Below are positions 27,871-52,232 of a stretch of 64,000 nt of DNA, in pieces (positions within the stretch are counted from its first letter, which is position 1; each line of letters starts with the position of its first letter). Origin of the DNA: Bacteroidia bacterium (GTDB lineage Bacteria; Bacteroidota; Bacteroidia; Cytophagales; JAAEPT01); NCBI GenBank assembly GCA_030431525.1, contig JAUIJC010000016.1:1-64000 (forward strand). The letters are read 5' to 3'. A program made the translations under genes and the position numbers. The notes beneath the pieces were generated by a model. That model saw only the letters and a list, made by a program, of their open reading frames with translations. It did no database searches and was not told where the DNA came from.

Positions 27871-27984
27871 AACCGCAGAGGACACAGAGGAATGGAGATG
27901 AAGAGACTCCCATGTTCTAAACAGATTGGGCTTTTGAGAGTAAGAGGCCTCCTTTTCTCCATACCTCTGTGCCCTCAGTGGTCA
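27871..27984. repeat. ACCACGG-type inverted-repeat element, copy 1
   Basis: The left arm (ACCGCAGAGGACACAGAGG, from 27872) and the right arm (CCTCTGTGCCCTCAGTGGT, ending near 27983) are imperfect inverse copies around an unrelated centre of about 60 bases. It is one of five such elements here. The remainder of the 432-base gap before the PorE-like gene shows no gene. Confidence 0.8.
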
Positions 27985-28204
27985 TTTTGAAAAGGCCTCT
28001 ACCGACAAGTTCGTGTTTGAGTCGCAGTAGGGTAATTTTTGATTCGTTTGGGATTAAGCTCATTCCACCGATAAACCGACTTGTTTAGCCCTTCTTTTGG
28101 AAAAGGTCTGATAGTTTTTGGCGTAGGGTGGCGTTTTTCCATGGAGCAATCTCCCATCAAGCAAATTCAATGATGGAGAGGATGCAGGACTAAACCGAAA
28201 TCCT

Positions 28205-30232
28205 ATGAAGAAGAATGTCATTGCAGGTTTGTTGCTGTCGGGAATCCTTGCCATAGGCTCTCAAACGAGCCTTGCTTTGGCTTCTGATGGGGGGGAGAAA
28301 TCCTTGTTAAGGCAGGCCAACTTGGAGTTTTCTGCTGATGCCTTTGCCTCGGCACTTCCAATTTATCAGCAAGTCTTGGAGAAGAACCCCGATAATGTTC
28401 AAGCCAACTACAAGGCTGGACTTTGTTGTTTGGATGAAGGTTCCATTCACAAACGTGAAGCAGCCGCTTATCTGGAAAAGGCCTATGCCTTGGACCCAAA
28501 AGTGGACAAGGAAATCCTGTTTCTCTTGGGACGAGCCTATCAAATGCGTGGTGATTATGACCTCGCCAGCGAAAAATATGAGGAGTTTATCAGCAGTGGT
28601 CACGGCAAGAATGACACCCAGCAAAGGGCAAAACAACTTATCGAGGATTGTGCGTTAGCCAAGGAGCTTAAGGCGAATCCATTGGATGTGAACATTGTTC
28701 CATTCGCCCCTGGAATTAATACACCCTACCATGAGTATTCAGCGGTGTTATCAGCAGATGAGCGCACCATGGTGTTTACTTCTCGCCGACCTGGTTCCAC
28801 AGGTTCTGAAGAACAGGATGAAGCTGATGATCTGTTTGAGGACATGTATGTGGTGACCAAAAATGATCAAGGAAAGTGGGGGACTCCGGTGAATCTTGAG
28901 GAGATTAACACCGACTCTCATGACGCCTCGGTGGGCTTGTCTCCTGATGGCCAACAGCTCTTGGTGTATTTGTCAGACGAGGGAGCTGGTGATATTTTCT
29001 ATTGCGACCGTAACGAGGACGGTACTTGGCAACGCCCTAAGCCATTTCCAAAGCAAATCAATAACCCAATGAGTAATGAGCGCCATGCTACAATCAGTAG
29101 GGATGGCAACACGCTTTATTTTGTGAGTGATCGCTCAGGCGGACTTGGAGGCTTTGATATTTATCGGGTGTCAAAAAACCCCGATGGGAAATGGGGAGGC
29201 GCCGTTAACCTTGGTGCACCAGTGAATACCCCAGGTGATGAGGATGCTCCATTTATCGATATCGATGACCAGACCTTGTATTTCAGCTCGAATGGTCACC
29301 CAGGAATGGGAGAGTTTGATGTGTTCAAAACTAAATGGGACGAGGAACAGTCTGCTTGGGCGGAGCCAAAGAATATGGGTTTCCCTATTAACTCGCCAAG
29401 TTCGGATATCTTCTTTGTGGTCTCTGGTGATGGTAAAACTGCCTATTTCAATTCGGCCTCTGATGGAGGACAAGGTGGTATTGACCTCTACATGATTAGT
29501 CCCATGTTGGTAGACAATATTGAGGAACGCCAACGTATCGTTTCGGATTTGACAGGTAAACCAATTCCTGAAATACCTGATGTCTCCTTGGGTATCATCG
29601 GTCAGGTGCAAAGTGTGAAGGGGGATCCCGTTGCCGATGCTACGGTACATTTAGTGGATGAGGAAGGTCAGGTAGTGCTGGATTTGCCGAAAACCCCCAA
29701 GGGCTATCAAGCAGAATTGCCGGAGGATTTGAGTGGTACTTTCCGTGTAGTAGCCAATGCCCAAGGTTTTCTCGAAGGTTCTGAAGAGGTGGTTATTGAA
29801 GAGAACCAGCTGGAAAAAGGCAATGTGTCCTTCACCATTTTCCTAAAGCCAATTGAGGAGAACGCCTCCATTGTCTTGCACAATATCTACTATGATTTTG
29901 ACAAGGCTACCCTCAAGAAAGAGTCCTTTGCGCAATTGGATCGCTTGGCCAATTTCATGGAAACACACCCCGGAGTAACCGCTGAGGTTGGTGGTCACTG
30001 CGATTCCAGAGGTTCAGAAGCCTACAACCAAAGCTTGTCCGAGCGTAGAAGTAAGGCGGTGGTGGAGTATTTGGTGAAGAAGGGAGTTGATTCCCATCGG
30101 CTTATCGCCAAAGGATATGGGGAAACAAGGCCTTTGGCTTCCAATGATGATGAAAAGGATGGCCGCGAGGTGAATCGAAGAACAGAGTTTACCGTCAAGA
30201 AGCATATGATTCAGGAGGAGGCACGGCATTAA
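28205..30232 (+). CDS. PorE-like TPR/beta-propeller/CRD/OmpA protein
   Basis: The 675-residue exported protein has a signal peptide (about 1-27), TPR helices (about 30-165), a PD40/WD40-like propeller (about 175-440; LYFVSDRSGGLGGFDIYRVS and LYFSSNGHPGMGEFDVFKT are typical blades), a carboxypeptidase-regulatory-like domain (about 465-535) and a C-terminal OmpA domain (about 560-670) with GGHCDSRGSEAYNQSLSERR, the peptidoglycan-binding signature. This order matches PorE of the type IX secretion machinery, which ties the complex to peptidoglycan. PorE is a lipoprotein; this signal shows no lipobox Cys, so it may be a PorE paralogue. T9SS cargo is encoded elsewhere in the window. Confidence 0.8.
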   Translation: MKKNVIAGLLLSGILAIGSQTSLALASDGGEKSLLRQANLEFSADAFASALPIYQQVLEKNPDNVQANYKAGLCCLDEGSIHKREAAAYLEKAYALDPKVDKEILFLLGRAYQMRGDYDLASEKYEEFISSGHGKNDTQQRAKQLIEDCALAKELKANPLDVNIVPFAPGINTPYHEYSAVLSADERTMVFTSRRPGSTGSEEQDEADDLFEDMYVVTKNDQGKWGTPVNLEEINTDSHDASVGLSPDGQQLLVYLSDEGAGDIFYCDRNEDGTWQRPKPFPKQINNPMSNERHATISRDGNTLYFVSDRSGGLGGFDIYRVSKNPDGKWGGAVNLGAPVNTPGDEDAPFIDIDDQTLYFSSNGHPGMGEFDVFKTKWDEEQSAWAEPKNMGFPINSPSSDIFFVVSGDGKTAYFNSASDGGQGGIDLYMISPMLVDNIEERQRIVSDLTGKPIPEIPDVSLGIIGQVQSVKGDPVADATVHLVDEEGQVVLDLPKTPKGYQAELPEDLSGTFRVVANAQGFLEGSEEVVIEENQLEKGNVSFTIFLKPIEENASIVLHNIYYDFDKATLKKESFAQLDRLANFMETHPGVTAEVGGHCDSRGSEAYNQSLSERRSKAVVEYLVKKGVDSHRLIAKGYGETRPLASNDDEKDGREVNRRTEFTVKKHMIQEEARH

Positions 30233-30266
30233 GCTGTGGAATATATAGGTAAGGGAGTTGAATTTT

Positions 30267-30421
30267 TAAACCACGGAGAAAGGGAGGAAAGGAGACGTGT
30301 TTTGTCAAAAAGGAGATGCTTCGCATTTAGAGAAGGGGAGACACAAACACCTCCCTTTCTCTACAGAGGCTTAGCTTCTACTCCTCTAAACTATCATTTG
30401 CTCCCTTTCTCCGTGGTTGAA
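30267..30421. repeat. ACCACGG-type inverted-repeat element, copy 2
   Basis: The left arm ACCACGGAGAAAGGGAGG begins near 30269 and the right arm CTCCCTTTCTCCGTGGT ends near 30417. The similarity continues outward as TTTTTAA/TTGAATT. Between the arms are about 100 bases, including a second, looser inverted pair (TCTACAGAGG and GGAGACACAAACACC). It occupies part of the 421-base gap between the PorE-like gene and nuoN; a 64-codon open frame across it is a by-product. Confidence 0.85.
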
Positions 30422-30458
30422 TTTCAATAATCAATTGCTTGACCTATATAAGTGAAAG

Positions 30459-30486
30459 AAGGAAGCTCATTGGGCTTCCTTTTTTT
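30459..30486 (+). terminator. Terminator downstream of the PorE-like gene
   Basis: The stem AAGGAAGC/GCTTCCTT is followed by a T run. It isolates nuoN from upstream transcription. Confidence 0.8.
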
Positions 30487-30627
30487 GGTTTTGGGCGAAT
30501 GTTGACTTTTCGCCAAGGCATGGTCATGAAAATGTTAAGTTCCTGAAATCTTCTGCCCAAAAAATTGCCCTGTTTACAAGGGAAAACTCGTAACTTGCGG
30601 CCGAAAACTTACCCCTACAAAAGGGGC

Positions 30628-30657
30628 ATGGCAAAGCGCGAATCAGGATTCTTGTGA
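30628..30657 (+). CDS. Possible 9-codon leader peptide overlapping the nuoN start
   Basis: A short frame, MAKRESGFL, begins at the ATG at 30628 and stops with TGA at 30655-30657. It overlaps the GTG start of nuoN at 30654 by four bases. The overlap could couple translation, which would make sense of the GTG start. It is equally likely to be chance: nine codons are too few to judge. Confidence 0.25.
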   Translation: MAKRESGFL

Positions 30658-32183
30658 TCTTCCTCGTCAAACAACTACCATTACCTAACGCTCAGCATTT
30701 GGAAACTTCCCTAAGGGGAATTTTGGACAATGTGGGGCACTTCCTGCCCGAGCTACTGTTGAGTGGTCTTCTGCTTGTGGTGTTGATGCAGGACTTAGTC
30801 TTGAGGGGAAAAGGAAGAAAGAGTTTGGCTTGGGTGACAGGTTTGGGTTTTGTGGGAGTCGCAGCCTCTCTGTTATTGCAGTGGGGCAAGTTTCCAGATG
30901 GGCTCTTGTTTGAGGGGATGTTACAGGTCAATGCATTGACCACATTTTTTAAGCTGATTGTATTGCTTGGTGCTGGAGTTGCCGTGTGGCATACCGAAGC
31001 AAGTTTGCATAAGAGGAGTGAGTACGAGGGGTCTGGAGAATATTATCAATTATTGATTTCTGTGGTTTTGGGAAGCTTACTGATGGTTTCAGCCACTCAT
31101 TTGGTTTCCCTATTTGTCGCTTTGGAATTGGTTTCCATTCCATCGTATGCCTTGGTGTTGTTCGCTGGAGATAAGCGCAGCAAGGAGGCAGGAATGAAAT
31201 ACATCTTGTTCGGGTTGTTTGCGGCGGCTTTGATGCTCTACGGAATGTCCTTTGTTTATGGCATTACCGGAGGGTTGGATTATGCTTCCATTCTTGAATA
31301 CTTTGAGCAGAATGCTTTGCAATGCAGTACGTTGCTGTCATTCGCCTTGTTGGCGGTAGCAGCGGGAGCGCTCTTCAAAATTTCGGCGGCGCCGATGCAC
31401 GTATGGACGCCAGATGTTTATGAAGGTTCACCAATGCCGGTGGTTTCCTTCTATTCGATTGCTCCAAAAGTTGCAGGCCTCATGGCCTTGATGATGTTGG
31501 TTCAGACTTCATCTTCTGTCATTTTCTTCGAAAAAATTACGTGGACATCTGTACTTGCTTTGGTGGCCTTGGTGTCCATCGTGGTAGGTAATTTCACGGC
31601 GCTTTTGCAAAAAAACGCCAAGCGGATGTTGGCTTATTCATCCATTGCTCATGCAGGTTTCTTGATGATAGGATTTATCGCAGGGAACCAAGCCGGCATG
31701 AATGGGCTTTTATACTACGTGTTGGCCTATGTCTTCATCAATATGGGCGCGTTCATCTTGGTAGATTTCCTTTCCAAGAAAACAGGCTCTGATGCCATGG
31801 AAAGCTTTGCTGGATTAGGCAAAAGTTATCCGTTGGTTGGAATTTTCATCATCCTTGTGATGTTGGCTTTGATTGGAATGCCACCAACCTCAGGATTCAT
31901 GGCCAAGTTGATGGTCTTTATTGCCTTGTGGGAAGCATACGGCGCGTCAGGTGATAACCTGTTGATGATCCTGTTTGTGGTTGGATTGGCCAATATTGTG
32001 ATCTCATTATTCTTCTACTTGAAGATACCTTACTATATGTATTTCCGTCAGTCGCCACAGGAGGTTGGCGCTGCGGGGATTGGATGGGGTAGCCAGCTGC
32101 TGCTATGGCTTCTTATCCTTCCAATAATTGGAATGTTCTTCTTTGTGTCCTTTGTAAATGGGCACTTGGCAGCAATTAGTTGA
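30654..32183 (+). CDS. nuoN: NADH-quinone oxidoreductase subunit N
   Basis: The 509-residue polytopic protein is an antiporter-like subunit of respiratory complex I that helps translocate protons. Family marks include LVSLFVALELVSIPSYALV, the Lys in SKEAGMKYILFG, KISAAPMHVWTPDVYEGSP and KRMLAYSSIAHAGFLMIG. The C-terminus has GMPPTSGFMAKLMVF. The start is a GTG at 30654; no ATG fits the frame upstream, and it leaves about 28 residues before the first helix. No other nuo gene is adjacent, although nuoN normally closes a long operon, so the complex I locus is split or this is an extra copy. Confidence 0.93.
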   Translation: MIFLVKQLPLPNAQHLETSLRGILDNVGHFLPELLLSGLLLVVLMQDLVLRGKGRKSLAWVTGLGFVGVAASLLLQWGKFPDGLLFEGMLQVNALTTFFKLIVLLGAGVAVWHTEASLHKRSEYEGSGEYYQLLISVVLGSLLMVSATHLVSLFVALELVSIPSYALVLFAGDKRSKEAGMKYILFGLFAAALMLYGMSFVYGITGGLDYASILEYFEQNALQCSTLLSFALLAVAAGALFKISAAPMHVWTPDVYEGSPMPVVSFYSIAPKVAGLMALMMLVQTSSSVIFFEKITWTSVLALVALVSIVVGNFTALLQKNAKRMLAYSSIAHAGFLMIGFIAGNQAGMNGLLYYVLAYVFINMGAFILVDFLSKKTGSDAMESFAGLGKSYPLVGIFIILVMLALIGMPPTSGFMAKLMVFIALWEAYGASGDNLLMILFVVGLANIVISLFFYLKIPYYMYFRQSPQEVGAAGIGWGSQLLLWLLILPIIGMFFFVSFVNGHLAAIS

Positions 32184-32220
32184 GAGTAAAAAATACAGAC
32201 TACTATACGTCTTTGTATCA

Positions 32221-32293
32221 AGTACAATGTATTATGTACAATGAGCTTCAAGAAGGGCAATCATTGTACATAGTACATAATACATTGTACAAA
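32221..32293. repeat. TACATTGTAC-type inverted repeat
   Basis: GTACAATGTATTATGTACA (32222-32240) and its inverted partner (about 32261-32290, TCATTGTACATAGTACATAA and on) flank 18 bases. The right arm has eight extra bases, TAGTACAT, so the unit has grown by internal repetition. It sits between nuoN and the amidophosphoribosyltransferase gene. Confidence 0.85.
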
Positions 32294-32397
32294 TGTATGG
32301 TGAGCTGAAAAAGTATTAGTGTTAGAGTCCTGTTGGACGGGAGGAATTTCCTTCAACAGTGTGCTTTAACCTGCTACATCTCTATCCCTTCACAGCA

Positions 32398-34284
32398 ATG
32401 CTTGAAGCAATCAAACACGAGTGCGGCATCGCCATGATTCGGCTCCGCAAGCCTTACCAGTACTACATCGACAAGTACGGTACCCCAATGTACGCCTTGA
32501 ACAGGATGTACCTGCTTATGGAGAAGCAGCACAACCGAGGTCAAGACGGTGCAGGTCTGGCAACCATCAAACTGAAGGTTCCCGAAGGAACGCGTTACAT
32601 CAGCCGTTACCGTTCGATTGACAAGCAGCCTATCGCTGAGATTTTCAGGAAGGTGAATGTCAAGTTCAAAAAGGGCTTGAAGGGAAACCGCAAGAAAATC
32701 TCAAATGCCAAATGGCTTCAGGAGAATTTGGCCTTCACAGGAGAGGTGTTGTTGGGTCACTTGCGTTATGGCACCCACGGTCAGAACAGCGTGGAGAACT
32801 GTCACCCATTCTTGCGTCAAAATAATTGGCGTAGCAAGAGCTTGGTGGTGGCCGGTAACTTCAACATGACCAATGTGGATGAGCTGTTCGCCCGATTGGT
32901 GGAGTTGGGTCAGCATCCAAAGGAAAAGGTGGACACGGTGACCGTGTTGGAGAAGATTGGTCATTTCTTGGATGAAGAAAGCCAACGTCTCTTCGCCCGA
33001 TTCAAGAAGGAAGGCAATCTTTCTAACCGAGAGATTTCCGAACTGATTGAAAATAACATTGATTTACAGACGGTACTTCGCCGTTCCTGTAAGGACTTTG
33101 ACGGTGGTTATGCCATGTGTGGTATGACTGGTTATGGCGCTACTTTCGTGGCTCGTGACCCTGCCGGAATCCGTCCTGCATATTATTACGCCGATGATGA
33201 GGTAGTCGTGGTTGCTTCCGAAAAGCCAGCCATCAAGACAGCCTTTAACATCGATTTTGACAAGATTAAGGAGGTAACTCCAGGTCATGCGCTCATCATT
33301 GAGAAGAATGGTGCCTTCGCGGAGAAGCCATTCATTGACCAATTGCCGAAGAAGTCTTGTTCATTCGAGCGCATTTACTTCTCTCGCAGTTCTGATCCAG
33401 GCATCTATCGCGAGCGTAAGGATTTAGGTCGTTTGTTGGCGCCAAAAGTATTGGAGGCTGTTGACCACGATCTTGAGAATACGGTGTTCTCTTACATTCC
33501 AAACTCTGCTGAGGTTTCCTTTATGGGACTGATGGAGGGCGTTGAGGAATACTTGTCCAAGCACAGAAAGGAGAAAATCAAAGAGGGGAAGATGTCCGAT
33601 CAGGAATTGGACAAATTGCTTTCGATTTCTCCTCGTGTAGAAAAATTGGTGATCAAGGACGCCAAGTTGCGCACCTTTATCACCGAGGACAAAGGCCGTG
33701 ACGATTTGGTTTCCAACGTTTACGACACCACTTATGAGGTGGTGAAGAAAGAGGTGGATACCTTGGTGGTGATTGACGATTCCATCGTTCGCGGAACAAC
33801 GCTTGAGAAAAGTGTTATCCGAATGTTGGATCGCTTGAAGCCAAAGAAAATCATCATTGTTTCCTCGGCTCCGCAAATCCGTTACCCAGACTGTTACGGC
33901 ATTGACATGTCGAAGATGAAGGAGTTTGTGGCGTTCCGTGCTTTGCTCGATCTGCTAAGGGATACTGATCAAGAAGGCAAGTTGGAGGAGGTTTATCAGA
34001 TGGCCAAGAAGGCTACTGACAATTCTCCGAACTATGTGCAGAGCCTTTATGATCTCTTTACGGAGGAGCAGATTACAGAACAAATTGCTCGAATCGTTGA
34101 TCCAGGAGATGTCGATGCTGGTATTAAAGTCATTTACCAGACCGTAGATAATTTGCACGAGGCCTGCCCAGATCATTTGGGTGATTGGTACTTCACTGGT
34201 AACTACCCAACTAAAGGTGGTAACCGCGTGGTGAACAAAGCCTTTGTGAACTTTATGGAAGGCGTAGAAGGAAGGGCTTATTAA
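32398..34284 (+). CDS. Long amidophosphoribosyltransferase (PurF-related)
   Basis: The 628-residue protein joins an N-terminal glutamine amidotransferase (Ntn hydrolase) domain to a type I phosphoribosyltransferase domain. The ATG at 32398 places the nucleophile at Cys9 (KHECGIAM), so an eight-residue propeptide would be removed. Conserved Ntn blocks are QHNRGQDGAGLA and HLRYGTHGQNSVENCHPF. The PRPP motif is VVIDDSIVRGTT near 458-469. Family PurF enzymes are about 470-500 residues; this is the long form seen in Bacteroidota, with extra segments near 75-105 and 375-450. It should make phosphoribosylamine from PRPP and glutamine, or is a PurF paralogue with another role. I leave the symbol blank for that reason. 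Confidence 0.85.
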   Translation: MLEAIKHECGIAMIRLRKPYQYYIDKYGTPMYALNRMYLLMEKQHNRGQDGAGLATIKLKVPEGTRYISRYRSIDKQPIAEIFRKVNVKFKKGLKGNRKKISNAKWLQENLAFTGEVLLGHLRYGTHGQNSVENCHPFLRQNNWRSKSLVVAGNFNMTNVDELFARLVELGQHPKEKVDTVTVLEKIGHFLDEESQRLFARFKKEGNLSNREISELIENNIDLQTVLRRSCKDFDGGYAMCGMTGYGATFVARDPAGIRPAYYYADDEVVVVASEKPAIKTAFNIDFDKIKEVTPGHALIIEKNGAFAEKPFIDQLPKKSCSFERIYFSRSSDPGIYRERKDLGRLLAPKVLEAVDHDLENTVFSYIPNSAEVSFMGLMEGVEEYLSKHRKEKIKEGKMSDQELDKLLSISPRVEKLVIKDAKLRTFITEDKGRDDLVSNVYDTTYEVVKKEVDTLVVIDDSIVRGTTLEKSVIRMLDRLKPKKIIIVSSAPQIRYPDCYGIDMSKMKEFVAFRALLDLLRDTDQEGKLEEVYQMAKKATDNSPNYVQSLYDLFTEEQITEQIARIVDPGDVDAGIKVIYQTVDNLHEACPDHLGDWYFTGNYPTKGGNRVVNKAFVNFMEGVEGRAY

Positions 34285-34312
34285 GTGGATTCCTTTTGAA
34301 AATAAAAGAATG

Positions 34313-34343
34313 AAAAAAGCACCGTCGTATGGCGGTGCTTTTT
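34313..34343. terminator. Bidirectional terminator between convergent genes
   Basis: AAAAAAGCACCG with CGGTGCTTTTT forms a stem with T runs on both strands. It ends the amidophosphoribosyltransferase gene and the opposing small-protein gene. The same hairpin recurs almost unchanged at 34985. Confidence 0.9.
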
Positions 34344-34359
34344 CTGTTTTTGGAGCTTA

Positions 34360-34845
34360 TTATTTAGCCCGCTTAAAATAATATCGGGTGATGAAAATCC
34401 CCTTGCCATCGCCTTTGCCAGCATCGCTTTCTACACCACCAATGACGTTAACGAGTTCCCAACCTTGAGCAGTCATCTCATTAAGTTTAGAGGCTTGCAT
34501 CGCGTCATTGGATGCAATGTTTTGGAAGTTGATACCAACACCACTGTAAAAGTTGACCATTTTGGTTTCCTTAAAGCCATTAATCTTAATGTCACCTCGC
34601 TTAACCTTTCCCTGATCTGATTTTTTGCCATCAGTTCTTTCGGTGGTAAAGTCGGCAACATTTAACTGATCGGTGTTTTCCACAATGCGCGAGCGACCTA
34701 ATCCCATTGGAACAATGGATTCTACAGCCGTGATGATTTTAAACTCATAGACTGGAGCAGTTTGCTGGGTTTGTGTCCCTGCTTTAAAAGAAATGAGGCC
34801 CAATGTAAGGGCACCTGCTGTAATGCCAATTAAAAGCTTTTTCAT
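34360..34845 (-). CDS. Small exported protein, DUF4177-like C-terminus
   Basis: The 160-residue protein has an N-terminal hydrophobic signal (about 1-22; LISFKAGT follows). The C-terminal half, LNEMTAQGWELVNVIGG then GIFITRYYFKR, has the short beta-helix-beta pattern of DUF4177-type proteins (a strand, a helix ending in GWEL, a YYFKR strand). Function is unknown. It probably sits in the periplasm or membrane. It is a single-gene unit between two terminators. Confidence 0.55.
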   Translation of the reverse strand: MKKLLIGITAGALTLGLISFKAGTQTQQTAPVYEFKIITAVESIVPMGLGRSRIVENTDQLNVADFTTERTDGKKSDQGKVKRGDIKINGFKETKMVNFYSGVGINFQNIASNDAMQASKLNEMTAQGWELVNVIGGVESDAGKGDGKGIFITRYYFKRAK

Positions 34846-34914
34846 AGGGTAATTGTTTTGTGTTCAATGACCCAAGTGAAACAGGTTAAGGTGGAATATG
34901 GTTCTGCTATCCAA

Positions 34915-34948
34915 TAAAAAAGACAGCCCCATTCAAGGCTGCCTTTTG
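34915..34948 (-). terminator. Hairpin between the small exported protein and the SBBP gene
   Basis: AAAAGACAGCC with GGCTGCCTTTT forms a stem with one mismatch, flanked by T runs on the minus strand. It lies upstream of the small-protein gene and downstream of the SBBP gene, in tandem with the next terminator. Confidence 0.6.
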
Positions 34949-34984
34949 ATAAACTCAAAAAACCTTTGTGAGAATTTGAGCATC

Positions 34985-35016
34985 AAAAAAGCACCGTCGT
35001 TTGGCGGTGCTTTTTT
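34985..35016 (-). terminator. Terminator of the SBBP-repeat gene, copy of the 34313 hairpin
   Basis: AAAAAAGCACCGTCGTTTGG continues into CGGTGCTTTTTT. The stem differs from 34313-34343 by about one base in the loop. It lies 83 bases after the SBBP gene stop. Confidence 0.88.
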
Positions 35017-35098
35017 CAATACAGCTGATTTCGTATTGGCTAAGGAGGTGCCAAGGTAAATTCTATTTGAAAAAAGCTGTTAATTTCCTTTGCCAACA

Positions 35099-39572: not shown

Positions 39573-39590
39573 AAAAATGAGGAAAATCTC

Positions 39591-43522: not shown

Positions 43523-43772
43523 GAGAGGAGTTTTTTAAACAAATTGATATCAGTAGGCTTAAAAATGGATAAGCGCCAAAGAATGCCACAAAGGTAAAAC
43601 CTTTATTTTAAATCAAAAGGATGGTTCTAAGGGAAGAAAATTATTCAGGTTTGAAAAGTAAACCATTGTCATCAATTCTGTTCCCGCAAGGTCAAATGGT
43701 TATCCCGCAAGGTGAAGGGGTTGTTTGAAATTCACAATATAGGTTGGAGGGAGATGGCTTTCTAAAGGAAAA

Positions 43773-45002
43773 TTAGTGATGATGCCCATGCCCAGCCTCG
43801 CTCTTCTTCATTTCCGCAAGTAGCTGATAAGCATTATTCAAGGTAATCTTTGAGGAATCAGGGAATTCCTCCAGTGGATTGATGGCCACCCAGCCTTGGT
43901 CTTTTTGGGCGAGCACTACTTTTAAAGGCTTGAAGTGAAACTCAGCATCACTCTTTTTCTCCAACACAAAAATGAAATAGGTGTCGCCTTGCTCCACTAT
44001 GGCTTCTTGGGGAACGGCAAGCACACTGTCCTCAGCAATTTCGATTCGACCTTCGATGAATGTTCCAGAGAGGAGTTCCTCACTGTTGTTCACGATTTCG
44101 GCGTGGATGTGCACAGCTTTGGATTCCTCTTCGAAGACCTTGCCCACGGAATAGATGCTTGCCACATATTCCTGCCTTGAGGCATTGGTTTGGAAGCGCA
44201 CCTTTTGCCCGATTTTCACCTTTGGGGCGTCTTGCTCAAATACCATTAAATCGGCGTGGATATGGTGGTTGTTGACCACATCAAAAAGATGCTGTCCGGG
44301 CTGGATGTATTGACCAGTATTTACCTCCACTTTTTTAATGTATCCCTCGATAGGCGAATAGATGGGGGCTTTGGAATCGATTTTTCCGGACTCAACGCGA
44401 CTTGGGCTAATCCGAATCAGTTCAAGCTTGGCTTTCAGTCCAGCCACCTTTGCGCGAAGCGACTGATATTCCGAAGTGATGCGTTGTGACTCTCTTCCAG
44501 AGGTAGCCTTTTTCTCCAAAAGGGCTCTTTGCCTTTGGTATTCAGTCTCTAAAAATTTCAGTTGGGAAAGGGCTTCTTGGTAGTCGGCTTGGAGGTCTAC
44601 GATTTTGGGGTCGGAAACATAGGCCAAAAGCTGTCCCTTTTTGACTTTATCGCCCTCAATGATTTTGATGTTCGTCACGCTTCCTTGGATGAAGGAACTG
44701 ATGGACGCTTCATTTTGCGGGGGAACTTCCAACCTTCCTGTGGCGGAAATGGTGGCCGAAATATTTCGGTATTCAGCCGTGCCGATTTTCAAGCCCAAAA
44801 CCTTGGCTTGGCGAGCGCTCAAGTGGACTTCGTTTTCGTCATGATGTTCGGCTTCCTCTCCGTGTTGATGGCCGTGTTCATCGTGATGCTCCTTGTGTTC
44901 GTTGTGCTCTGAATTTCCATGGTCATGGTCGCCGTGGTTTTCTTGGGAGTTGCAGGAAAACAGAGAGAGGGCAAGGGCGAAAACAAGCAGGTTTTTATTC
45001 AT
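43773..45002 (-). CDS. Heavy-metal RND periplasmic adaptor lipoprotein (CzcB/CusB-like)
   Basis: The 409-residue protein has a lipobox, SLFSC (Cys17), so it is lipid-anchored. Residues about 22-55 are His-rich (repeats of HDH, HEHK and HGHQH) and the C-terminus ends in HGHHH, both plausible metal-binding tails. The core has lipoyl halves (SSFIQGSVTNIKIIEGDKVK and APIYSPIEGYIKKVEVNTG), a helical hairpin of about 90 residues and a beta-barrel. It should connect the RND pump encoded upstream to the outer membrane channel. Zn, Co, Cd or Cu/Ag cannot be told apart by eye. Confidence 0.9.
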   Translation of the reverse strand: MNKNLLVFALALSLFSCNSQENHGDHDHGNSEHNEHKEHHDEHGHQHGEEAEHHDENEVHLSARQAKVLGLKIGTAEYRNISATISATGRLEVPPQNEASISSFIQGSVTNIKIIEGDKVKKGQLLAYVSDPKIVDLQADYQEALSQLKFLETEYQRQRALLEKKATSGRESQRITSEYQSLRAKVAGLKAKLELIRISPSRVESGKIDSKAPIYSPIEGYIKKVEVNTGQYIQPGQHLFDVVNNHHIHADLMVFEQDAPKVKIGQKVRFQTNASRQEYVASIYSVGKVFEEESKAVHIHAEIVNNSEELLSGTFIEGRIEIAEDSVLAVPQEAIVEQGDTYFIFVLEKKSDAEFHFKPLKVVLAQKDQGWVAINPLEEFPDSSKITLNNAYQLLAEMKKSEAGHGHHH

Positions 45003-45026
45003 GGGAGAGGCTGAGTTGGGATGTTG

Positions 45027-45126
45027 AATTAACCACGGAGAAAGGGAGGGAAGGGGCAGAGAACTGTTTCGGTTGAGAAATTTCGAATAATTAGGGTCTC
45101 CTTTTCTCCATTTCTCCGTGGTTGAG
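45027..45126. repeat. ACCACGG-type inverted-repeat element, copy 3
   Basis: ACCACGGAGAAAGGGAGG (from 45032) faces TCTCCATTTCTCCGTGGTT (ending about 45122) across about 60 bases. It lies between the adaptor gene and the RND gene, inside what should be one operon. Confidence 0.88.
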
Positions 45127-45148
45127 AAAATGACTCCTTTGCGAGGTG

Positions 45149-48100
45149 CTATTGAGTGAGGTACTCAAGTTCCACCAAGGCCATCAAGTAGTTCTGCAAC
45201 ACATCCAAGTATTTCTGTTGGGTGACCAATGAGTTCTGGGTGTTCAGCAAATGGTTATTCAAACTGATGGCGCCCAGCTCATAGGAATTAGCCGAGGCTT
45301 CCAGCTGTTCTTGGGCTAAAGGGAGCGCCTGTTCTTGGAAGAAGGCCAAACTCATTTCCCACTTTTGAAAGTTTAGGACGGCCACCTGAAGGCGGGCATT
45401 GGCTTCGAGCTTTCGCGCCTCAAGGTTTTGCAAAGCAATTTCTTGAGCCACTTGGCTGGCCTGAATTCGGGCGCCTTGGCCAGTGAACAACGGGAAGTTT
45501 ACGCCAGCCTGAAAGTTGTGGAAACCATACACTTTTTGGACGCGCTCCACGCCGTACTGAATGTTAAAGGTCGGTAGGCGATTGGCTTTTTGGCGGTCAA
45601 TGTTTTCAATGTTTACCGCCAATTCTTGGTTGGCTGTCGCCAAAAGCGGGTGTTCCATCGAAATGCTGTCCGCCCAGTTAAGGTGATGGCTTTTCGTCAA
45701 CAGGCTATCATTCATTGGTGTCGGGATAAAAGCCGAATCCGTTCCCAGCCATTGGTTCAGCTGAACCACGCGGATGAGCAAATCCTGCTGGCTTTGTTGC
45801 TTGTAAAGCTTCATCCGCATCAAGCGGTTTCTGGCCTCGAGCATCTCCAAATCCGAAATGCTCTGTTGCTCAAAGCGTGCTTCCAACGTGCTGAGCCATT
45901 GGCCAACCAAGCTGTCGCGCTCACTCCAAATCTCCAAACTACGCTGGGCCACATGCGCTGAATACCAGCGTTCTTTCACCACTTTTTCGATTTCCCTTTC
46001 GGTGAGTTGCGCCTGAAGCGATGCCAACTGGCGTTGGGATTCCAACCATTCCTTTCTGGAATTGATGCCCAACAATTGCATCTGATTTTGCTGAATACCC
46101 GCCAAAATAAAGAGGTTGATGCCCTGTCGGCTGATTTCATCCGCGCTGGTGAACAGGGTGGTGTTACCCAGATTGACGGCGGTTTGTTTGAGTTCATCTC
46201 GCCGTTCAATCTCAAGCTGTTTTGCCTTGAGTTGTGGATGCGTTTTGGAACGGGAAATGGCTTCCTCCAATGAAATTTCAGGAAGCTTGCCGAGGTCTTG
46301 GGCTTGGCCCTGTTGAGGAATCAAACCAATGGAAGCAACCAAAAGAAGGGTGAGGGCAGTAGCCACAGTCGTCATTCCTTTGGAAGTTGAATCCTTCGGC
46401 TTTTCCGCCATCCACCATTTATAAAGCACAGGAATCACGAATAGGGTAAGCAATGTGGAGGTAAACAATCCGCCAATGACCACCGTGGCCAGCGGACGCT
46501 GAACTTCGGCGCCAGCGGTGTTGGACAGGGCCATGGGCAGAAAGCCGAGAATATCCGTGGAGGCGGTCAACATAATGGGGCGGATGCGTCGCTTACTTCC
46601 TTCGATGATGAGTTGGAGCAAGCTCAGTTTTCCTTCTTCTTTCAATTCATTAAAACCGTTGATTAGTACTAAGCCATTAAGCACCGCCACACCGAATAGC
46701 ACAATGAAGCCAATGCCTGCCGAAATACTGAAGGGCATATCCCGAAGCCACAGGGCATAAATGCCACCAATGGAGGCCAGCGGAATGGAAACGAAGATAA
46801 TCAGTGATTGTTTAAAGGACTTTAGGGCCAAGAAAATCAGCAGGAATATCACGCCCAAGGCCAAGGGAATCACCAATTGAAGGCGGTCTTTGGCGCGCTC
46901 CAAGTTTTCGAAAGCTCCGCCATATTGAATGGAATAGCCAGCAGGAAGTTGGAGTTTTTCTTCCAATACTTTTGAGATGTCTTTGATGACGGATTCCACA
47001 TCTCGCCCACGGACGTTGACGCCCACATACACCCGACGGCGTGTGTTGTCTCGGCTGATTTGCATCGGTCCCGTTTGGTAGCGGATGGTAGCCACCTCGC
47101 GCAATGGAATTTGTTGGCCGTTGGGTAGGGGAAGGTAGAGGTTTCGCAGGTTGTCAATGTCCTGACGGTAATGGTGATCAAGGCGGACTACCAAATCAAA
47201 CTTCCGTTCGCCTTCAAAAATTTCTCCTGCTTTCCCTCCTGCAAATGCGGTATTGATCAAATCATTTAGGTCGTCGATGTTCAATCCGTAGCGCGCGATT
47301 TGGTCGCGGTTGTATTTTACTGTGAGCTGTGGCAAGCCAAGTGTCGCTTCCGCTCGAAGGTCGCCCACGCCTTCAACCCCAGCAATGAGCTTTTGAATTT
47401 CATCGGCTTTTAAGGCTAATATTTCCAAATCCTCTCCGAAAACTTTGATGGCAATATCTTCCCGAACGCCTGTCAGCAATTCATTAAAGCGCATCTCTAT
47501 GGGTTGGCTAAATTCAAAACTCAAACCAGTCAAGCCACTTAAGCTTTTTTCTATTTTTTCAATAAGCTCTTCTTTGGTTTCCGCAGATTCCCATTCGTCT
47601 TGAGGTTTTAGAATGGCAAAGCAATCCGCCAAATCCATCGGCATTGGGTCAGTGGGTACATCCGCCACGCCAATTTTGCTAATCACATGCTCGATTTCGG
47701 GGAACTCAGCTTTCAGGATTTTCTCCACTTCGGTGGTGGCCTTCACACTTTCCGTCAGGGAACTACCTGATTTGAGCATGACGTGAAATGCCAAGTCGCC
47801 TTCGTCCAGTTTCGGGATGAACTCACCACCCATTTGCCTGAAAATGGCTACCGAAGAGGTGAACATGATGAAAGCACCTATCAAAATGTAGCTGGTGTTT
47901 TTCAAGGCATTTTCCAACATTGGACCATACAGCTTGACGAACCAGTTGTTGATGCGGTCACCAATATTCTGCTTCTCAGTTTTTGAAACCCGAAGGAAAA
48001 GTGCTGAAATGACAGGAACCCAAGTGAGGCAGAGTACGATGGCGCCAATCATGGCAAAGCTGAAGGTCAGCGCCATGGGCTTAAACATTTTGCCTTCTAC

Positions 48101-49510
48101 ACCTTCGAGGGCAAGAATTGGCAGGAAAACCATCAGGATAATCAATTGCCCGAAAAAGGCTGAACCCATCATTTTTTGGGAAGAGGAAATGACTTCTTCG
48201 TCCGATGGGCGAATGTGTTTGTCCTGATGGTTTAGGCTGGAAACTCGGGTGACGATGGCAAAAACAGTGGCCTCTACAATGATGACAGCGCCGTCCACGA
48301 TAATGCCGAAGTCAATGGCGCCAAGGCTCATTAAGTTGGCGGACACCCCGAAGAGTTTCATCAGCAAAAAGGCGAACAATAAGGAAAGCGGAATGGTGGA
48401 GGCCACAATCAGTCCGCTTCGCCAGTTGCCGAGCAATAGAATCAAGACGAAGATGACAATCAAACCGCCTTCGGCAAGGTTGCGTTTTACGGTGCTGGTG
48501 GTATGCTCAATCAGTTTGCTTCGGTCCAAGAATGGTTCGATTTGCACACCCTCGGGAAGTGTTTTGTTGATTTGCGCCATTCGGGTTTTTACCCGTTCAA
48601 TCACCCCGTTCGAGTTTTCACCTTTGAGCATCATCACCATCCCTCCAACGGTTTCACCTTCCCCGTCTTTGGTGATGGCGCCAAAGCGTAAGGCTTTGCC
48701 AAAGCGAACCGTCGCCACATCCCGAATTTTGATTGGCACCCCATTGCGATGGGCCACCACAATCAGCTCAATGTCGCTAATGCTTTCCGCCAATCCTTCG
48801 CCACGGATAAACTGGGCTTGGCTCGCATGTTCGATATAGGCGCCACCGCTGTTGGCGTTGTTGGATTCAAGCGCCCGAAAAATATCGTGGATGGTCACGT
48901 TCACCGCCCTTAGGCGTTCAGGGGAAATGGCCACCTCATATTGGCGGGTCTGCCCTCCAAAGCCGTTCACTTCCACCACGCCAGACACCAAGGCCATCTG
49001 GCGTTTGACAATCCAGTCCTGAATTTCACGGAGTTTGCTCGGAGTGAACTCAGCTTTATGGTCAGGATCGACTTTTAAGGTGTATTGGTAAATCTCGCCC
49101 AAACCCGTGGTGATGGGGCCGATAGAAGGCTGACCGAAGTGTGCTGGGATTTCTTGGCGGACCTCTTCCAGCTTTTCCGTCACCAACTGGCGTGGGAGGT
49201 AGGTGCCAATTTCGTCCTTGAAAACAACCGTGACAATGGAAAGCCCCGAGCGGGAAACCGAGCGAACTTCGGTCATGTCGGGCAGGTTGGCCACGGCCAT
49301 TTCCACGGGGTAGGTGATAAAGCGTTCGACGTCCTCGGTGCCCAAGTCTGGCGCTTGGGTGATGATCTGCACCTGATTGTTGGTGATGTCAGGAACGGCG
49401 TCCAGCGGTACACTCCTCATCGCCCAAAGACCACCCAAAAACAGTCCGAGCGTCAGCAGACAGATGATGGTTTTGTTTCGGACAGAAAAGGCGATAAGGG
49501 CGTTGATCAT
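45149..49510 (-). CDS. CzcA/CusA-type RND efflux pump fused to a TolC-like channel domain
   Basis: The 1453-residue protein has an HME-type RND transporter in residues about 1-1040: GAIDFGIIVDGAVIIVEA in TM4 carries the DFGxxxDGA signature of heavy-metal pumps, followed by the second six-helix half (PIMLTASTDILGFLPMAL). After about residue 1046 comes a second signal-peptide-like segment (TALTLLLVASIGLIPQQGQAQ) and about 380 residues of TolC/CzcC type (ISLEEAISRSKTHPQLKAK; LLNTQNSLVTQQKYLD). The pump takes metal ions from periplasm or cytoplasm and the TolC part would form the outer membrane exit. Such fusions occur in Bacteroidota, but one chain spanning both membranes is odd, so cleavage at the internal AQA site or an internal start at about residue 1046 is plausible. 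Confidence 0.92.
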   Translation of the reverse strand: MINALIAFSVRNKTIICLLTLGLFLGGLWAMRSVPLDAVPDITNNQVQIITQAPDLGTEDVERFITYPVEMAVANLPDMTEVRSVSRSGLSIVTVVFKDEIGTYLPRQLVTEKLEEVRQEIPAHFGQPSIGPITTGLGEIYQYTLKVDPDHKAEFTPSKLREIQDWIVKRQMALVSGVVEVNGFGGQTRQYEVAISPERLRAVNVTIHDIFRALESNNANSGGAYIEHASQAQFIRGEGLAESISDIELIVVAHRNGVPIKIRDVATVRFGKALRFGAITKDGEGETVGGMVMMLKGENSNGVIERVKTRMAQINKTLPEGVQIEPFLDRSKLIEHTTSTVKRNLAEGGLIVIFVLILLLGNWRSGLIVASTIPLSLLFAFLLMKLFGVSANLMSLGAIDFGIIVDGAVIIVEATVFAIVTRVSSLNHQDKHIRPSDEEVISSSQKMMGSAFFGQLIILMVFLPILALEGVEGKMFKPMALTFSFAMIGAIVLCLTWVPVISALFLRVSKTEKQNIGDRINNWFVKLYGPMLENALKNTSYILIGAFIMFTSSVAIFRQMGGEFIPKLDEGDLAFHVMLKSGSSLTESVKATTEVEKILKAEFPEIEHVISKIGVADVPTDPMPMDLADCFAILKPQDEWESAETKEELIEKIEKSLSGLTGLSFEFSQPIEMRFNELLTGVREDIAIKVFGEDLEILALKADEIQKLIAGVEGVGDLRAEATLGLPQLTVKYNRDQIARYGLNIDDLNDLINTAFAGGKAGEIFEGERKFDLVVRLDHHYRQDIDNLRNLYLPLPNGQQIPLREVATIRYQTGPMQISRDNTRRRVYVGVNVRGRDVESVIKDISKVLEEKLQLPAGYSIQYGGAFENLERAKDRLQLVIPLALGVIFLLIFLALKSFKQSLIIFVSIPLASIGGIYALWLRDMPFSISAGIGFIVLFGVAVLNGLVLINGFNELKEEGKLSLLQLIIEGSKRRIRPIMLTASTDILGFLPMALSNTAGAEVQRPLATVVIGGLFTSTLLTLFVIPVLYKWWMAEKPKDSTSKGMTTVATALTLLLVASIGLIPQQGQAQDLGKLPEISLEEAISRSKTHPQLKAKQLEIERRDELKQTAVNLGNTTLFTSADEISRQGINLFILAGIQQNQMQLLGINSRKEWLESQRQLASLQAQLTEREIEKVVKERWYSAHVAQRSLEIWSERDSLVGQWLSTLEARFEQQSISDLEMLEARNRLMRMKLYKQQSQQDLLIRVVQLNQWLGTDSAFIPTPMNDSLLTKSHHLNWADSISMEHPLLATANQELAVNIENIDRQKANRLPTFNIQYGVERVQKVYGFHNFQAGVNFPLFTGQGARIQASQVAQEIALQNLEARKLEANARLQVAVLNFQKWEMSLAFFQEQALPLAQEQLEASANSYELGAISLNNHLLNTQNSLVTQQKYLDVLQNYLMALVELEYLTQ

Positions 49511-49726
49511 TGGACGTAATGTAAGTCTTTTGGCGAATCTAAGTTAAAATTTAGACAACTCTAAATATGGAAATGGGCTGAACAAAGACTCGGATAGGTG
49601 AATGGGGAAATCATTGCTGGAATTTCCCTGTTTTCTTTCTGTGTAATTTCTCGAAAAAAATACAGGAAATGTTACTTGGGTGAGTCTAATCACAGACTTC
49701 AGAGCGAAAATGAAGTATAATGCAGT

Positions 49727-50053
49727 ATGTTGAAGAAGTTGATTAAAAAATTGATGGGGCTGGACACCGATTTAAGGGAGGTATTGGCCCGAAATCCACG
49801 CATCATTGATGTCCGAATTCCTGAGCAGTTTTCGGCGGAACATATTGATGGCGCCGAGAATCTGCCTTTGGCTACCTTGGATAAACACTTGCCGAATTGG
49901 AAGGATGATAGGCCAGTGGTGGTGTATTGCAACCGTGGCGTTCAAAGCGGAATGGCGATGCGCAAAATGAAGAAATTCGGTATTGAGGTTTATAATGGTG
50001 GGGCTATCGGTTCACTGAGAAATCAGCTTTCGCGAAGGGCAGGTAATGCTTGA
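49727..50053 (+). CDS. Small rhodanese-domain protein
   Basis: The 108-residue cytoplasmic protein is a single rhodanese domain. The active-site loop is VVVYCNRGVQS, with the persulfide Cys and a GVxS ending. DVRIPEQFSAEHIDGAENLP is the CH2A-type entry block. These domains carry sulfane sulfur. The gene runs divergent from the metal efflux gene and is followed by a dispersed repeat element and a second rhodanese gene. Confidence 0.88.
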   Translation: MLKKLIKKLMGLDTDLREVLARNPRIIDVRIPEQFSAEHIDGAENLPLATLDKHLPNWKDDRPVVVYCNRGVQSGMAMRKMKKFGIEVYNGGAIGSLRNQLSRRAGNA

Positions 50054-50056
50054 ATT

Positions 50057-50235
50057 TACCACGGAGAACACGGAGGAATGGAGGTAAGGAGGCTACCTAC
50101 TCCAATGATGTCAACTTAAGAGTGGGGCTAAACGCCCCACTCTGATATATTTCGCCCTTACAGGGCTCTCAGGATTGGATAGCGGACATCTTTCCTAAGC
50201 CTCCTTTTCTCCTTTCCTCTGTGCTCTCAGTGGTT
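50057..50235. repeat. ACCACGG-type inverted-repeat element, copy 4, with another repeat inside
   Basis: The left arm ACCACGGAGAACACGGAGG (from 50058) pairs with CCTCTGTGCTCTCAGTGGT (ending near 50234). Between them lies a complete copy of the 19.2-kb repeat core (50110-50190), so one element sits inside the other. Confidence 0.82.
50110..50190. repeat. Dispersed intergenic repeat, copy B (nested)
   Basis: The reverse complement matches 19168-19270: GCCCTGTAAGGGCGAAATAT, ATCAGAGTGGGGCG and the TTAAGTTGACATCA end. Its own hairpin is AGTGGGGC/GCCCCACT (50120-50141). It is nested in the ACCACGG-type element. Confidence 0.8.
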
Positions 50236-50259
50236 CTAAAAACTCTCCTGTGGCAAACT

Positions 50260-50293
50260 CACACTGCCAAAGCCTCCGGCTGTTGGCAGGTGA
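50260..50293. repeat. GCCAAAG palindrome, copy 1
   Basis: CTGCCAAAGCC-TCC-GGCTGTTGGCAG folds as a near-perfect stem. It lies 43 bases before the lipoprotein rhodanese start. Four more copies are at 50845, 50908, 51944 and 52003. Confidence 0.85.
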
Positions 50294-50336
50294 CAGCCTA
50301 CGTAAACACAGTCAGTATTATTTCTCCTAGTAAAAA

Positions 50337-50834
50337 ATGAAGTGGTTAAAATTTTCCCTCTTAGCAGTTTTCTTGTCGGGTTTTACCTCCTGTGCCAAAA
50401 GCAATAATCGGGTAGGGAGCAAGGCATTTGCCACCTTGCTGGACACCATGCTGTCTCATTCCGTCACGGAGATTGACGTGAAGGAGGCCGTCGCATTGCC
50501 TGATGATGTGATTTTTCTGGATGCAAGGGCCAAGGAGGAGTTTGCCGTGAGTCATATCAAGGGTGCCATTTGGGCCGATGGCAATGAGCTCCAGACGCTG
50601 GACAAGAACAAAACGATTATCGTCTACTGTTCTATCGGTGTGCGCAGTGAGCATCTCACCAAGAAATTGAAGGATGCAGGTTTCACCGACGTGAGGAATT
50701 TATATGGTGGCATTTTCGAATGGGTGAACCAAGGGCATCCTGTTTACCATGAGGGTGAGGAAACTCAAAAAGTGCATGCCTATAATAAGACTTGGGGGAT
50801 TTGGTTGGAGAAGGGGGAGAAGGTTTATAAGTGA
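50337..50834 (+). CDS. Rhodanese-domain lipoprotein
   Basis: The 165-residue protein has a signal peptide ending in the lipobox FTSC (Cys19), so the domain is outside the cytoplasm. The rhodanese part has FLDARAKEEFAVSHIKGA and an active-site loop VYCSIGVRSE, with the expected Cys near 102. The C-terminal 30 residues (YNKTWGIWLEKGEKVYK) extend beyond the usual domain. It may hold or pass sulfane sulfur in the periplasm. The gene is flanked on both sides by dispersed palindromic repeats. Confidence 0.88.
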   Translation: MKWLKFSLLAVFLSGFTSCAKSNNRVGSKAFATLLDTMLSHSVTEIDVKEAVALPDDVIFLDARAKEEFAVSHIKGAIWADGNELQTLDKNKTIIVYCSIGVRSEHLTKKLKDAGFTDVRNLYGGIFEWVNQGHPVYHEGEETQKVHAYNKTWGIWLEKGEKVYK

Positions 50835-50844
50835 GATTGAGGAG

Positions 50845-50942
50845 CACCTCTGCCAACAACCAGAGGCTTTGGCAGTAGGTTTTCTTTAGGAGCGTGATTT
50901 AAAGAGTTCACACTGCCAAAGCCTCTGGCTGTTGGCAGGTGA
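50845..50942. repeat. Inverted pair of GCCAAAG palindromes (copies 2 and 3)
   Basis: Copy 2 (50845-50876, minus) and copy 3 (50908-50941, plus) face each other around 31 bases. Copy 3 ends 11 bases before the start codon of the hydroxylase-family gene, so its hairpin would lie in the ribosome-binding region of the mRNA. Confidence 0.85.
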
Positions 50943-50952
50943 AAAAGTAATC

Positions 50953-51873
50953 ATGGAAAAGTATCTGGACATAGCGGTTTCGGCCTATTCAGGCTACTGG
51001 AATTACTTGGTGGGGGAAGTGCTCAATCCAAGTTGGACCAACTGGTTCTATTGGCTGACGGGACTTTCCTTGTTGGTGTGGGGCTTGGAAATCGCCTTTC
51101 CTTGGCGCAAGCAACAATCCATCATCCGCAAGGACTTTTGGCAAGACCTGTTCTACCTCTACTTCAATTTCTTTCTCTTTTCCCTGATTGGCTACAATGC
51201 CATTTCCAATGTGGCCGTGGTGGCTTTCAATGATTTCCTTGGCTTGTTCGGCATCAAGAATTTGATGGCGATTCAGGTGGGAACATGGCCAAAATGGGGG
51301 CAATTGCTTCTCCTTTTTGTCTTGGCGGATTTCATCCAATGGAACACTCACAGGCTATTGCACCGGTTCGATTTTCTCTGGAAGTTCCATAAGCTTCATC
51401 ATTCAGTGACGGAAATGGGCTTTTCCGCTCATTTGCGTTTCCATTGGATGGAAACCATCCTTTATAAAAGCATCCAATACATTCCCTTGGCCATGATTGG
51501 ATTCGGCATTGAGGATTTCTTCTTGGTGTATCTCTTCACGGTGGTTATCGGGCATTTGAACCATGCCAACTTGAACTGGTCTTATGGGCCATTCAAATAC
51601 ATTTTTAACAATCCGCGGATGCACCTGTTACATCATGCTGTGGACTTGCCTGAAAACCATCGCTACGGCGCCAACTTTGGGTTGACGCTAAGCATTTGGG
51701 ATTACTTGTTCGGCACGGCCTATACCTTGGAGGGCGATGGAAATGTGCCCGTAGGTTTGTCCGATCAGAAGGATTTTCCAGAGGATACTTGGGAGCAGAT
51801 GTGGTATCCGTTTCATGGGGAATCGGAGGAAGAGGTGTTGGATTCTTCTGAGGGGAGACGGGTGGTTAGGTAG
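50953..51873 (+). CDS. Fatty-acid-hydroxylase-superfamily (sterol-desaturase-like) membrane protein
   Basis: The 306-residue protein is polytopic. The di-iron His motifs are present: THRLLHRFDFLWKFHKLHHS, then HLNHANLNW, then MHLLHHAVDLPENHRYG. This is the hydroxylase/desaturase pattern for an integral-membrane oxidase acting on a lipid substrate. The lipid cannot be named. The ATG at 50953 is preferred over an in-frame start inside the palindrome at 50932. Acidic residues end the protein. It is flanked by repeats at both ends. Confidence 0.88.
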   Translation: MEKYLDIAVSAYSGYWNYLVGEVLNPSWTNWFYWLTGLSLLVWGLEIAFPWRKQQSIIRKDFWQDLFYLYFNFFLFSLIGYNAISNVAVVAFNDFLGLFGIKNLMAIQVGTWPKWGQLLLLFVLADFIQWNTHRLLHRFDFLWKFHKLHHSVTEMGFSAHLRFHWMETILYKSIQYIPLAMIGFGIEDFFLVYLFTVVIGHLNHANLNWSYGPFKYIFNNPRMHLLHHAVDLPENHRYGANFGLTLSIWDYLFGTAYTLEGDGNVPVGLSDQKDFPEDTWEQMWYPFHGESEEEVLDSSEGRRVVR

Positions 51874-51882
51874 GAGGATTTT

Positions 51883-52099
51883 TAAACCACGGAGAAAGGG
51901 AGGTAGGGAGACGCACTAATGTTCGCTGAATTTGCTTCGGCTGTCACCTGCCAACAGCTGGAGGCTTTGGCAGTGTGATATTTCCCACAGAGCTATTGTT
52001 TGTATCACACTGCCAAAGCTTTCAGCTGTTGGCAGGTGATACAAACAATAGCTCTTTTAAATTCTAACCTGCTCCTTTTCTCCCTTTCTCCGTGGTTAA
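51883..52099. repeat. ACCACGG-type inverted-repeat element, copy 5, with GCCAAAG pair inside
   Basis: ACCACGGAGAAAGGGAGG (from 51886) faces CTCCCTTTCTCCGTGGT (ending about 52097). Inside is a pair of GCCAAAG palindromes (51944-51980 and 52003-52041) with further arms AGAGCTATTGTTTGTATCAC and GTGATACAAACAATAGCTCT. A lone right-arm copy, CTCCGTGGTTAA, follows at about 52157-52168. Together these fill the 359-base gap before xseA. Confidence 0.85.
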
Positions 52100-52232
52100 T
52101 ATACCCTCATTCCCCATACTTTTTTACGCGAACTGTGCGCCTCCCTTTCTCCCAACCTCCGTGGTTAACCTTTCATCATGACGTTCTTTGTAGCCATTTC
52201 CTCTAACTTTGCCCTTCCACAACCTTCCCCAA

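Follow-up and report, generated by a model that had tools for sequence, protein, structure and literature searches.

The closest described systems with which the repeats considered here can be compared are the miniature inverted-repeat transposable elements (MITEs), the repetitive extragenic palindromes (REP) and bacterial interspersed mosaic elements (BIME) with their RAYT transposases, the intervening sequences (IVSs) of 23S rRNA, and several families of heptamer repeats. IVSs are stem-loops that hold a gene for a four-helix-bundle protein and are cut by RNase III (PMC4990558), and their movement is an old open question. A GTAG/CGTC tag is reported to mark the two large REP superfamilies (PMC3733652). 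Among the heptamers, TAACTGA repeats were reported from Beggiatoaceae, Cyanobacteria and Bacteroidetes, and for their spread there was “no mechanism evident” (MacGregor, 2015; PMC4679880), and repeats of GGGAATC and GGGGA(C/T)T were described in Xanthomonas and Nostoc with no link to known mobile elements (Rehm, 2015; PMC4692102). Here we describe five inverted-repeat elements of the ACCACGG type in a 64,000-nucleotide stretch of a Bacteroidia bacterium (assembly GCA_030431525.1, contig JAUIJC010000016.1, positions 1 to 64,000; hereafter the window), whose genome of 4.24 Mb is represented by an assembly that is 99.97% complete. The best protein and DNA matches of the genes in the window likewise place the host in Bacteroidota.

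The reading that we favor, with a probability of roughly 0.6, is that the five repeats belong to a dispersed, gene-less, MITE-like family, formed by non-autonomous members of a class of elements built around the GxxExxY gene and mobilized by the nuclease that this gene is predicted to encode. We infer this membership from the arms, which consist of 8–9-mers of the form NNCRCNRAG, within the 8–10-mers of the class; since no GxxExxY gene lies between them, the window copies are only gene-less relatives and not full members. The original prediction, made from the letters of the window, had placed five inverted-arm elements here, and all of them are present to within a few bases, in intergenic gaps, and fold as strong hairpins (z from −5.8 to −15.3 against mononucleotide shuffles). 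They divide into type A, with arms ACCACGGAG-AAAGGGAGG-AAAGGAG, and type B, with arms ACCACRGAG-NNCACAGAG-GAAAGGAG, as follows (no strand is assigned):

27872–27982: element 1, type B, with period-9 arms at about 27872–27899 and about 27955–27982; fold z −6.6.
30270–30417: element 2, type A, with period-8 arms, long form with a branched centre; fold z −9.4.
45032–45122: element 3, type A, short form; fold z −5.8.
50058–50234: element 4, type B arms around an unusually long centre; fold z −10.1.
51886–52096: element 5, type A arms; fold z −15.3.

The count of five is an underestimate. Within the window, ACCACGGAG has 177 sites with up to two mismatches, versus 120 ± 12 in shuffled sequence, and none of 100 shuffles reaches 177. 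In the whole genome, the 18-mer ACCACGGAGAAAGGGAGG (up to three mismatches) has 90 sites, compared with 2 when the pattern is reversed, and for the B-type arm the corresponding counts are 110 and 19; the similarity of the arms, which the original prediction proposed to check outside the five copies, therefore exceeds chance. The pairing of inward-facing arms gives at least 77 paired elements of 51–335 bp, with weaker or hybrid ones besides, and the total of hairpin elements between the genes of this genome is about 80–90. Of the paired elements, 37 are of type A (51–335 bp; in the window those starting at 30270, 45032 and 51886) and 40 are of type B (mostly 110–113 bp; 27872 and 50058 in the window). 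A single highly specific scan of genome contigs with the arm pattern returned one match, in a metagenome-assembled genome of Opitutales, where an element without a gene stands at the end of a contig. In a genome of the same order as the host (C15:70000–73000), ACCACAGAG elements are arrayed back to back, the right arm of one being joined to the left arm of the next by a short A/T linker.

It had also been claimed that the arms are conserved and the centres are not. The five copies, however, mix two subfamilies, each of which has its own centre: 23 full-length B copies (110–115 bp) align end to end with one common centre, element 1 has a centre in common with other B copies, and in type A the centres are common within smaller groups. 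In the genome, 54 of the 73 testable centres of both types match another centre (E ≤ 0.01), versus 0–2 after shuffling. Conserved sequence also extends beyond the arms, as TATAGGTnAGGnAGTTGATTTTTTA in A copies and CTGAATAGAnTTATTGGTAAGGA-like sequence in B copies, both enriched with respect to control flanks; a GTTGATTTTT-like motif is present at 34 of 74 A arms and at 5 of 148 control flanks. Shared centres and conserved outer flanks, taken together, imply that the elements moved as whole units larger than their arms. Full-length copies with the same centre, which the original prediction had named as the finding that would speak against it, are thus common, and its argument against the simple transposition of one unit falls. 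Some genomic copies are chimeric, with one A arm and one B arm, and some carry other repeats inside.

The property that relates these elements to GxxExxY genes is the construction of the arms, which are degenerate tandem 8–9-mers of the unit NNCRCNRAG. The period of these units, which end in GAG, is 8 in 25 of 26 scoreable A copies and 9 in 17 of 18 B copies. At GxxExxY (TIGR04256) loci of other Bacteroidota, inverted flanking arms exceed the 95% point of controls in 24 of 28 testable cases. An inward NNCRCNRAG unit is found on both sides of 23 of 30 GxxExxY loci versus 4 of 32 four-helix-bundle (IVP) loci, and at least two such units per side at 15 of 30 versus 0 of 32; these samples are the best-scoring loci and are not phylogenetically independent. 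Individual cases include arms such as TTTAACCACAGAGTTCACAGAG in one Bacteroidota genome, the arms TTCACCACAGAGGACGCAGAGGACACGGAG around the GxxExxY gene that Bacteroides finegoldii carries between radA and the gene of an FAD protein, paired arms of the window type at GxxExxY genes of Bernardetia and of one IMG/VR contig, and hairpins of an NNCRCNRAG-type unit beside the GxxExxY gene of Gemmatirosa. On a plasmid of Sphingomonas parapaucimobilis, a GxxExxY gene located between fabD and fabG is bounded by a clear arm on the left (CACGCGAAGGCGCGAGGACGCGAAG), with none that is clear on the right, and in the GxxExxY records of Treponema, Fusobacteria, Persicobacter and Prevotella clear arms were not seen. 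What stands of the earlier idea that the arms spread as paired ends is that in other genomes arms built from this unit enclose contents that differ, most often a GxxExxY gene, and that A and B arms are joined locally in some copies.

The same association is found at the level of genomes. The GxxExxY gene is present in 59 of 118 sampled Bacteroidota genomes, and at least two arm sites occur in 32 of the 59 genomes with the gene versus 5 of the 59 without it (p = 9e-8, uncorrected for phylogeny); when only genomes of at least 3 Mb are considered, p is 3e-4, likewise uncorrected. As for the protein, GxxExxY corresponds to the Pfam family PDDEXK_3, with a weak match to Cas4 in addition, and in an alignment of 12 sequences D67, E77-x-K79 and Q91-x3-Y95 are invariant, so that a nuclease of the RecB/Cas4-like PD-(D/E)XK type is predicted. 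In the viral contigs examined, the exact arm pattern is absent, one GxxExxY locus is confirmed, and there is no sign of phages as the main carriers. The literature on the arm 16-mers, on GxxExxY and on the PF13366 and TIGR accessions gave no prior description in the open-access papers searched.

Evidence of movement comes from another genus (g95), in which the comparison of relatives suggested by the original prediction could be made. In one g95 genome, the 18-mer words that serve as arms of a GxxExxY gene also make up gene-less elements of 50–60 bp. At orthologous sites, four species carry a 440-bp GxxExxY element, one has it in decayed form and three lack it. The operon gap before ATGCCAGAAATATTTATAGACGG is occupied by a gene-less ACCACAAAG element in four species and stands empty in two; two other species have an element with a 117-aa IVP gene in this gap instead. 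Both gene-bearing and gene-less elements are thus present in some species and absent in others, and no target duplication is visible at these sites. For the window itself, the nearest relative compared for empty sites gave no DNA match, an empty result that proves nothing.

The mechanism that we propose would begin with the expression of the GxxExxY nuclease by read-through from the host operon. At tandem sites, the IVP and GxxExxY genes are oriented in the direction of the operon in 51 cases and against it in 2, which indicates that gene-bearing elements probably use read-through transcription. The predicted nuclease would recognize the repeated arms, either as duplex or as an extruded hairpin, and would mobilize in trans the DNA between them, gene-less copies included. 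Insertion would probably be blind to orientation and take place at the DNA level, since gene-less B copies have no sense bias (11 same, 8 opposite), and any target duplication would be shorter than 4 bp. Settled copies would then probably behave as neutral hairpins of 3′ untranslated regions (3′-UTRs), to be eroded and recombined unit by unit.

Several observations weigh against this reading. The link between GxxExxY and the arms is correlative, and the related genomes among the 118 are not independent samples. Many arm-bearing genomes hold decayed copies. The only GxxExxY gene of the host genome (C54:45504–45842) is flanked by different repeats, of the GATTAACAGGATGCAGCC type, and the gene cognate to the window arms is missing from an assembly that is nearly complete; no gene was found between arms of the window type in the host genome, and all window copies are gene-less. 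Target-site duplication was sought in the home genome as a direct repeat of 4–9 bp, and none is enriched at any pair of offsets, which sets the elements apart from most DNA transposons. In addition, four-helix-bundle genes share the overall architecture but are not demonstrated nucleases, and the mover need not be the encoded protein.

Of the other explanations, the one that survives best, and that we nevertheless consider unlikely, is that these are ordinary MITEs of a DDE transposase, with plain terminal inverted repeats as arms and GxxExxY as coincidental cargo. The size, the copy number, the inverted ends, the intergenic scatter and the centres conserved by subfamily are all compatible with MITEs, and related gene-bearing elements exist, but in another genus. 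The arms are nevertheless degenerate tandem 8–9-mers and not unique terminal repeats, the target duplication of at least 4 bp is missing, and an intact arm pair around a longer insert was seen at none of the 26 loci examined in which short pairs were lacking. The arm unit is also associated with GxxExxY across the phylum. With regard to an autonomous partner, the same arm words bracket GxxExxY in g95 and do not in the host genome; the related gene-bearing element encodes the predicted PD-(D/E)XK nuclease, which is no proven transposase, and no known transposase.

Two further explanations, both based on RNA, seem to us slightly less probable, and to a similar degree. The first considers the elements as functional RNA hairpins (3′-UTR stabilizers, processing sites or terminators) maintained by selection and dispersed by older duplication. 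The strong folds fit such a role, as do the own-arm coupling at B positions 6, 10 and 11 and the location of the copies, mostly just past stop codons: 63 of 72 adjoin at least one gene 3′ end, and 9 lie in divergent gaps. However, a run of T follows the hairpin in only 5 of 154 cases, which means that most are not terminators; the mismatches in the stems are A-C (23) and G-T (17), with no pairing signature specific to RNA; and orthologous sites in g95 are empty in some species. Since T-runs are rare and G-T mismatches are not in excess over A-C, a selected RNA role of settled copies is unproven.

The second, about as doubtful, proposes mobility at the RNA level in the manner of the 23S rRNA intervening sequences, by which a transcribed stem-loop is copied back into the genes of other transcripts. 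In IVP elements, one small gene, read in the direction of the host transcript, is framed by inverted arms made of repeats, and one g95 operon gap is occupied by either kind of element, IVP (two species) or gene-less ACCACAAAG (four species). The co-directional placement of gene-bearing elements speaks for such a process, but gene-less B elements do not share it, and the bias of gene-bearing copies is therefore better explained by their need for read-through expression. Unlike the classical IVSs, which are found in 23S rRNA, the window elements are located in gaps between protein genes and have no IVP gene inside, and their arm period is 8–9, versus 7 in IVP arms.

The transposition of REP/BIME-type palindromes by a RAYT (IS200/IS605-like Y1) transposase, suggested by palindromes that are short, intergenic and close to the 3′ ends of genes and that at times form back-to-back arrays, is the least probable of all, since the GTAG/CGTC tag is in effect absent from the stem base (2 of 154 versus 5 of 459 in controls), the arms are longer, the associated gene is another, and no RAYT was seen beside any copy (no genome-wide RAYT search was made).

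A wider proposal, which we hold only tentatively and rate at somewhat less than even, is that the GxxExxY and IVP elements represent one widespread, undescribed class of minimal mobile elements of bacteria, in which a single promoterless gene lies between inverted arms of degenerate tandem repeats and the protein sets the period of the arms, 7-mers for IVP and 8–10-mers for the PD-(D/E)XK protein GxxExxY. Gene-less derivatives of this class would be the source of many intergenic repeats that lack an explanation, among them the ACCACGG family and perhaps also the heptamers of cyanobacteria, Beggiatoaceae and Bacteroidota. IVP genes (four-helix-bundle, PF05635, 23S-IVS-type) were found in 232 of 296 genomes, and many of them across the phylum are flanked by inverted arms; the host genome has two, with arms of other words such as GGTTCATGGTTGATGG and AACTGTTAACTGATAAC, and at one IVP element (C12:97194) the arms are composed of TAACTGA-like heptamers. 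Among scoreable loci, the arm period of IVP is 7 in 13 of 16 and otherwise 8, and that of GxxExxY is mostly 8–10 (11 of 13). When 70-bp flanks are pooled without prior choice of arms, IVP gives z=17.9 at lag 7 and z=13.6 at lag 14, and GxxExxY gives a broad signal at 8–12 that peaks at lags 9–10 (z 5–7), with controls near background in both cases. The rule was replicated in named records, with z=8.6 at lag 7 for IVP (Cyanobacteria, Alphaproteobacteria) and z=5.5 at lag 9 for GxxExxY (several phyla). It is by their period of 8–9 and by the sequence of the unit that the window arms fall on the GxxExxY side.

The heptamer repeats are also abundant intergenic short tandem repeats whose spread is unexplained, but they have a period of 7 and were described as direct repeats, whereas the window arms have a period of 8–9. 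That they are linked to IVP elements is a lead suggested by shared words. The arms of IVP elements, at C12:97194 and at other four-helix-bundle loci, are heptamers such as TAACTGATAACTG, which are words of the unexplained TAACTGA repeats (PMC4679880). If correct, the wider proposal would account concretely for the spread of such short-tandem-repeat families between genes, and would offer a testable partner for two common orphan families, GxxExxY and four-helix-bundle/IVP. The common architecture, insertion site and period rule make the movement of the 23S intervening sequences directly testable, by binding and by mobility, and a mobile element with a single PD-(D/E)XK protein would be unusual.

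The remaining features of the window concern flanks, nested repeats and one isolated arm:

30243–30269, no strand: outer flank of element 2, TATAGGTAAGGGAGTTGAATTTTTAA, mirrored at 30418–30450.
50121–50167, plus strand: foreign repeat that sits inside element 4 and is similar to Acido-Lenti-1 RNA (RF01687), 34.9 bits.
19209–19255, minus strand: a similar copy of the core nested in element 4, also Acido-Lenti-1-like (RF01687), 35.7 bits.
51941–52042, no strand: inverted pair of palindromes of the CACACTGCCAAAG..GTTGGCAGGTG family that fills the centre of element 5.
52140–52165, minus strand: orphan right arm, ACCACGGAGGTTGGGAGAAAGGGAGG, 44 bp past element 5.

The orphan arm is a further addition to the five copies originally listed, and the two nested repeats described at that time are real: a counterpart of the core near 19.2 kb lies within element 4, and the inverted pair lies within element 5. 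The Acido-Lenti-1-like core behaves as a dispersed repeat in the window, and both of its copies remain under the Rfam gathering score of 37. The Rfam search of the window gave no family for the arms, and microRNA matches at 51953–52030 were rejected as sub-threshold hairpin matches of the kind that arise by chance.

With regard to the surroundings of each element, element 1 is preceded by the outer-flank motif TATTGGAAAGGA. A clear hairpin with a T-run, similar to an intrinsic terminator, lies between the upstream gene and this element (27795–27838), which probably places the element outside the upstream transcript. Element 2 starts 37 bp past the upstream stop codon, and its TATAGGTAAGGGAGTTGAATTTTTAA flank is conserved in many A copies. 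Element 3 sits between two co-directional genes of the minus strand, HlyD-like and RND efflux, and element 4 starts 4 bp past a stop codon. Around the single GxxExxY gene of the host (C54:44000–47500), several GATTAACAGGATGCAGCC..ATCCTG..AATCC hairpins are found on each side, a third arm vocabulary, and on plasmid pANA02 of Anabaena sp. 90 a four-helix-bundle gene is located between cas6 and cas4. Finally, single copies of the CACACTGCCAAAG..GTTGGCAGGTG palindrome adjoin other elements, for example to the right of element 4; palindromes CACACTGCCAAAG..AGCTGTTGGCAGGTG, of a family distinct from the elements themselves, are found within them or next to them, at 51941–52042 and 50252–50300 of the window and in the flanks of other genomic copies.

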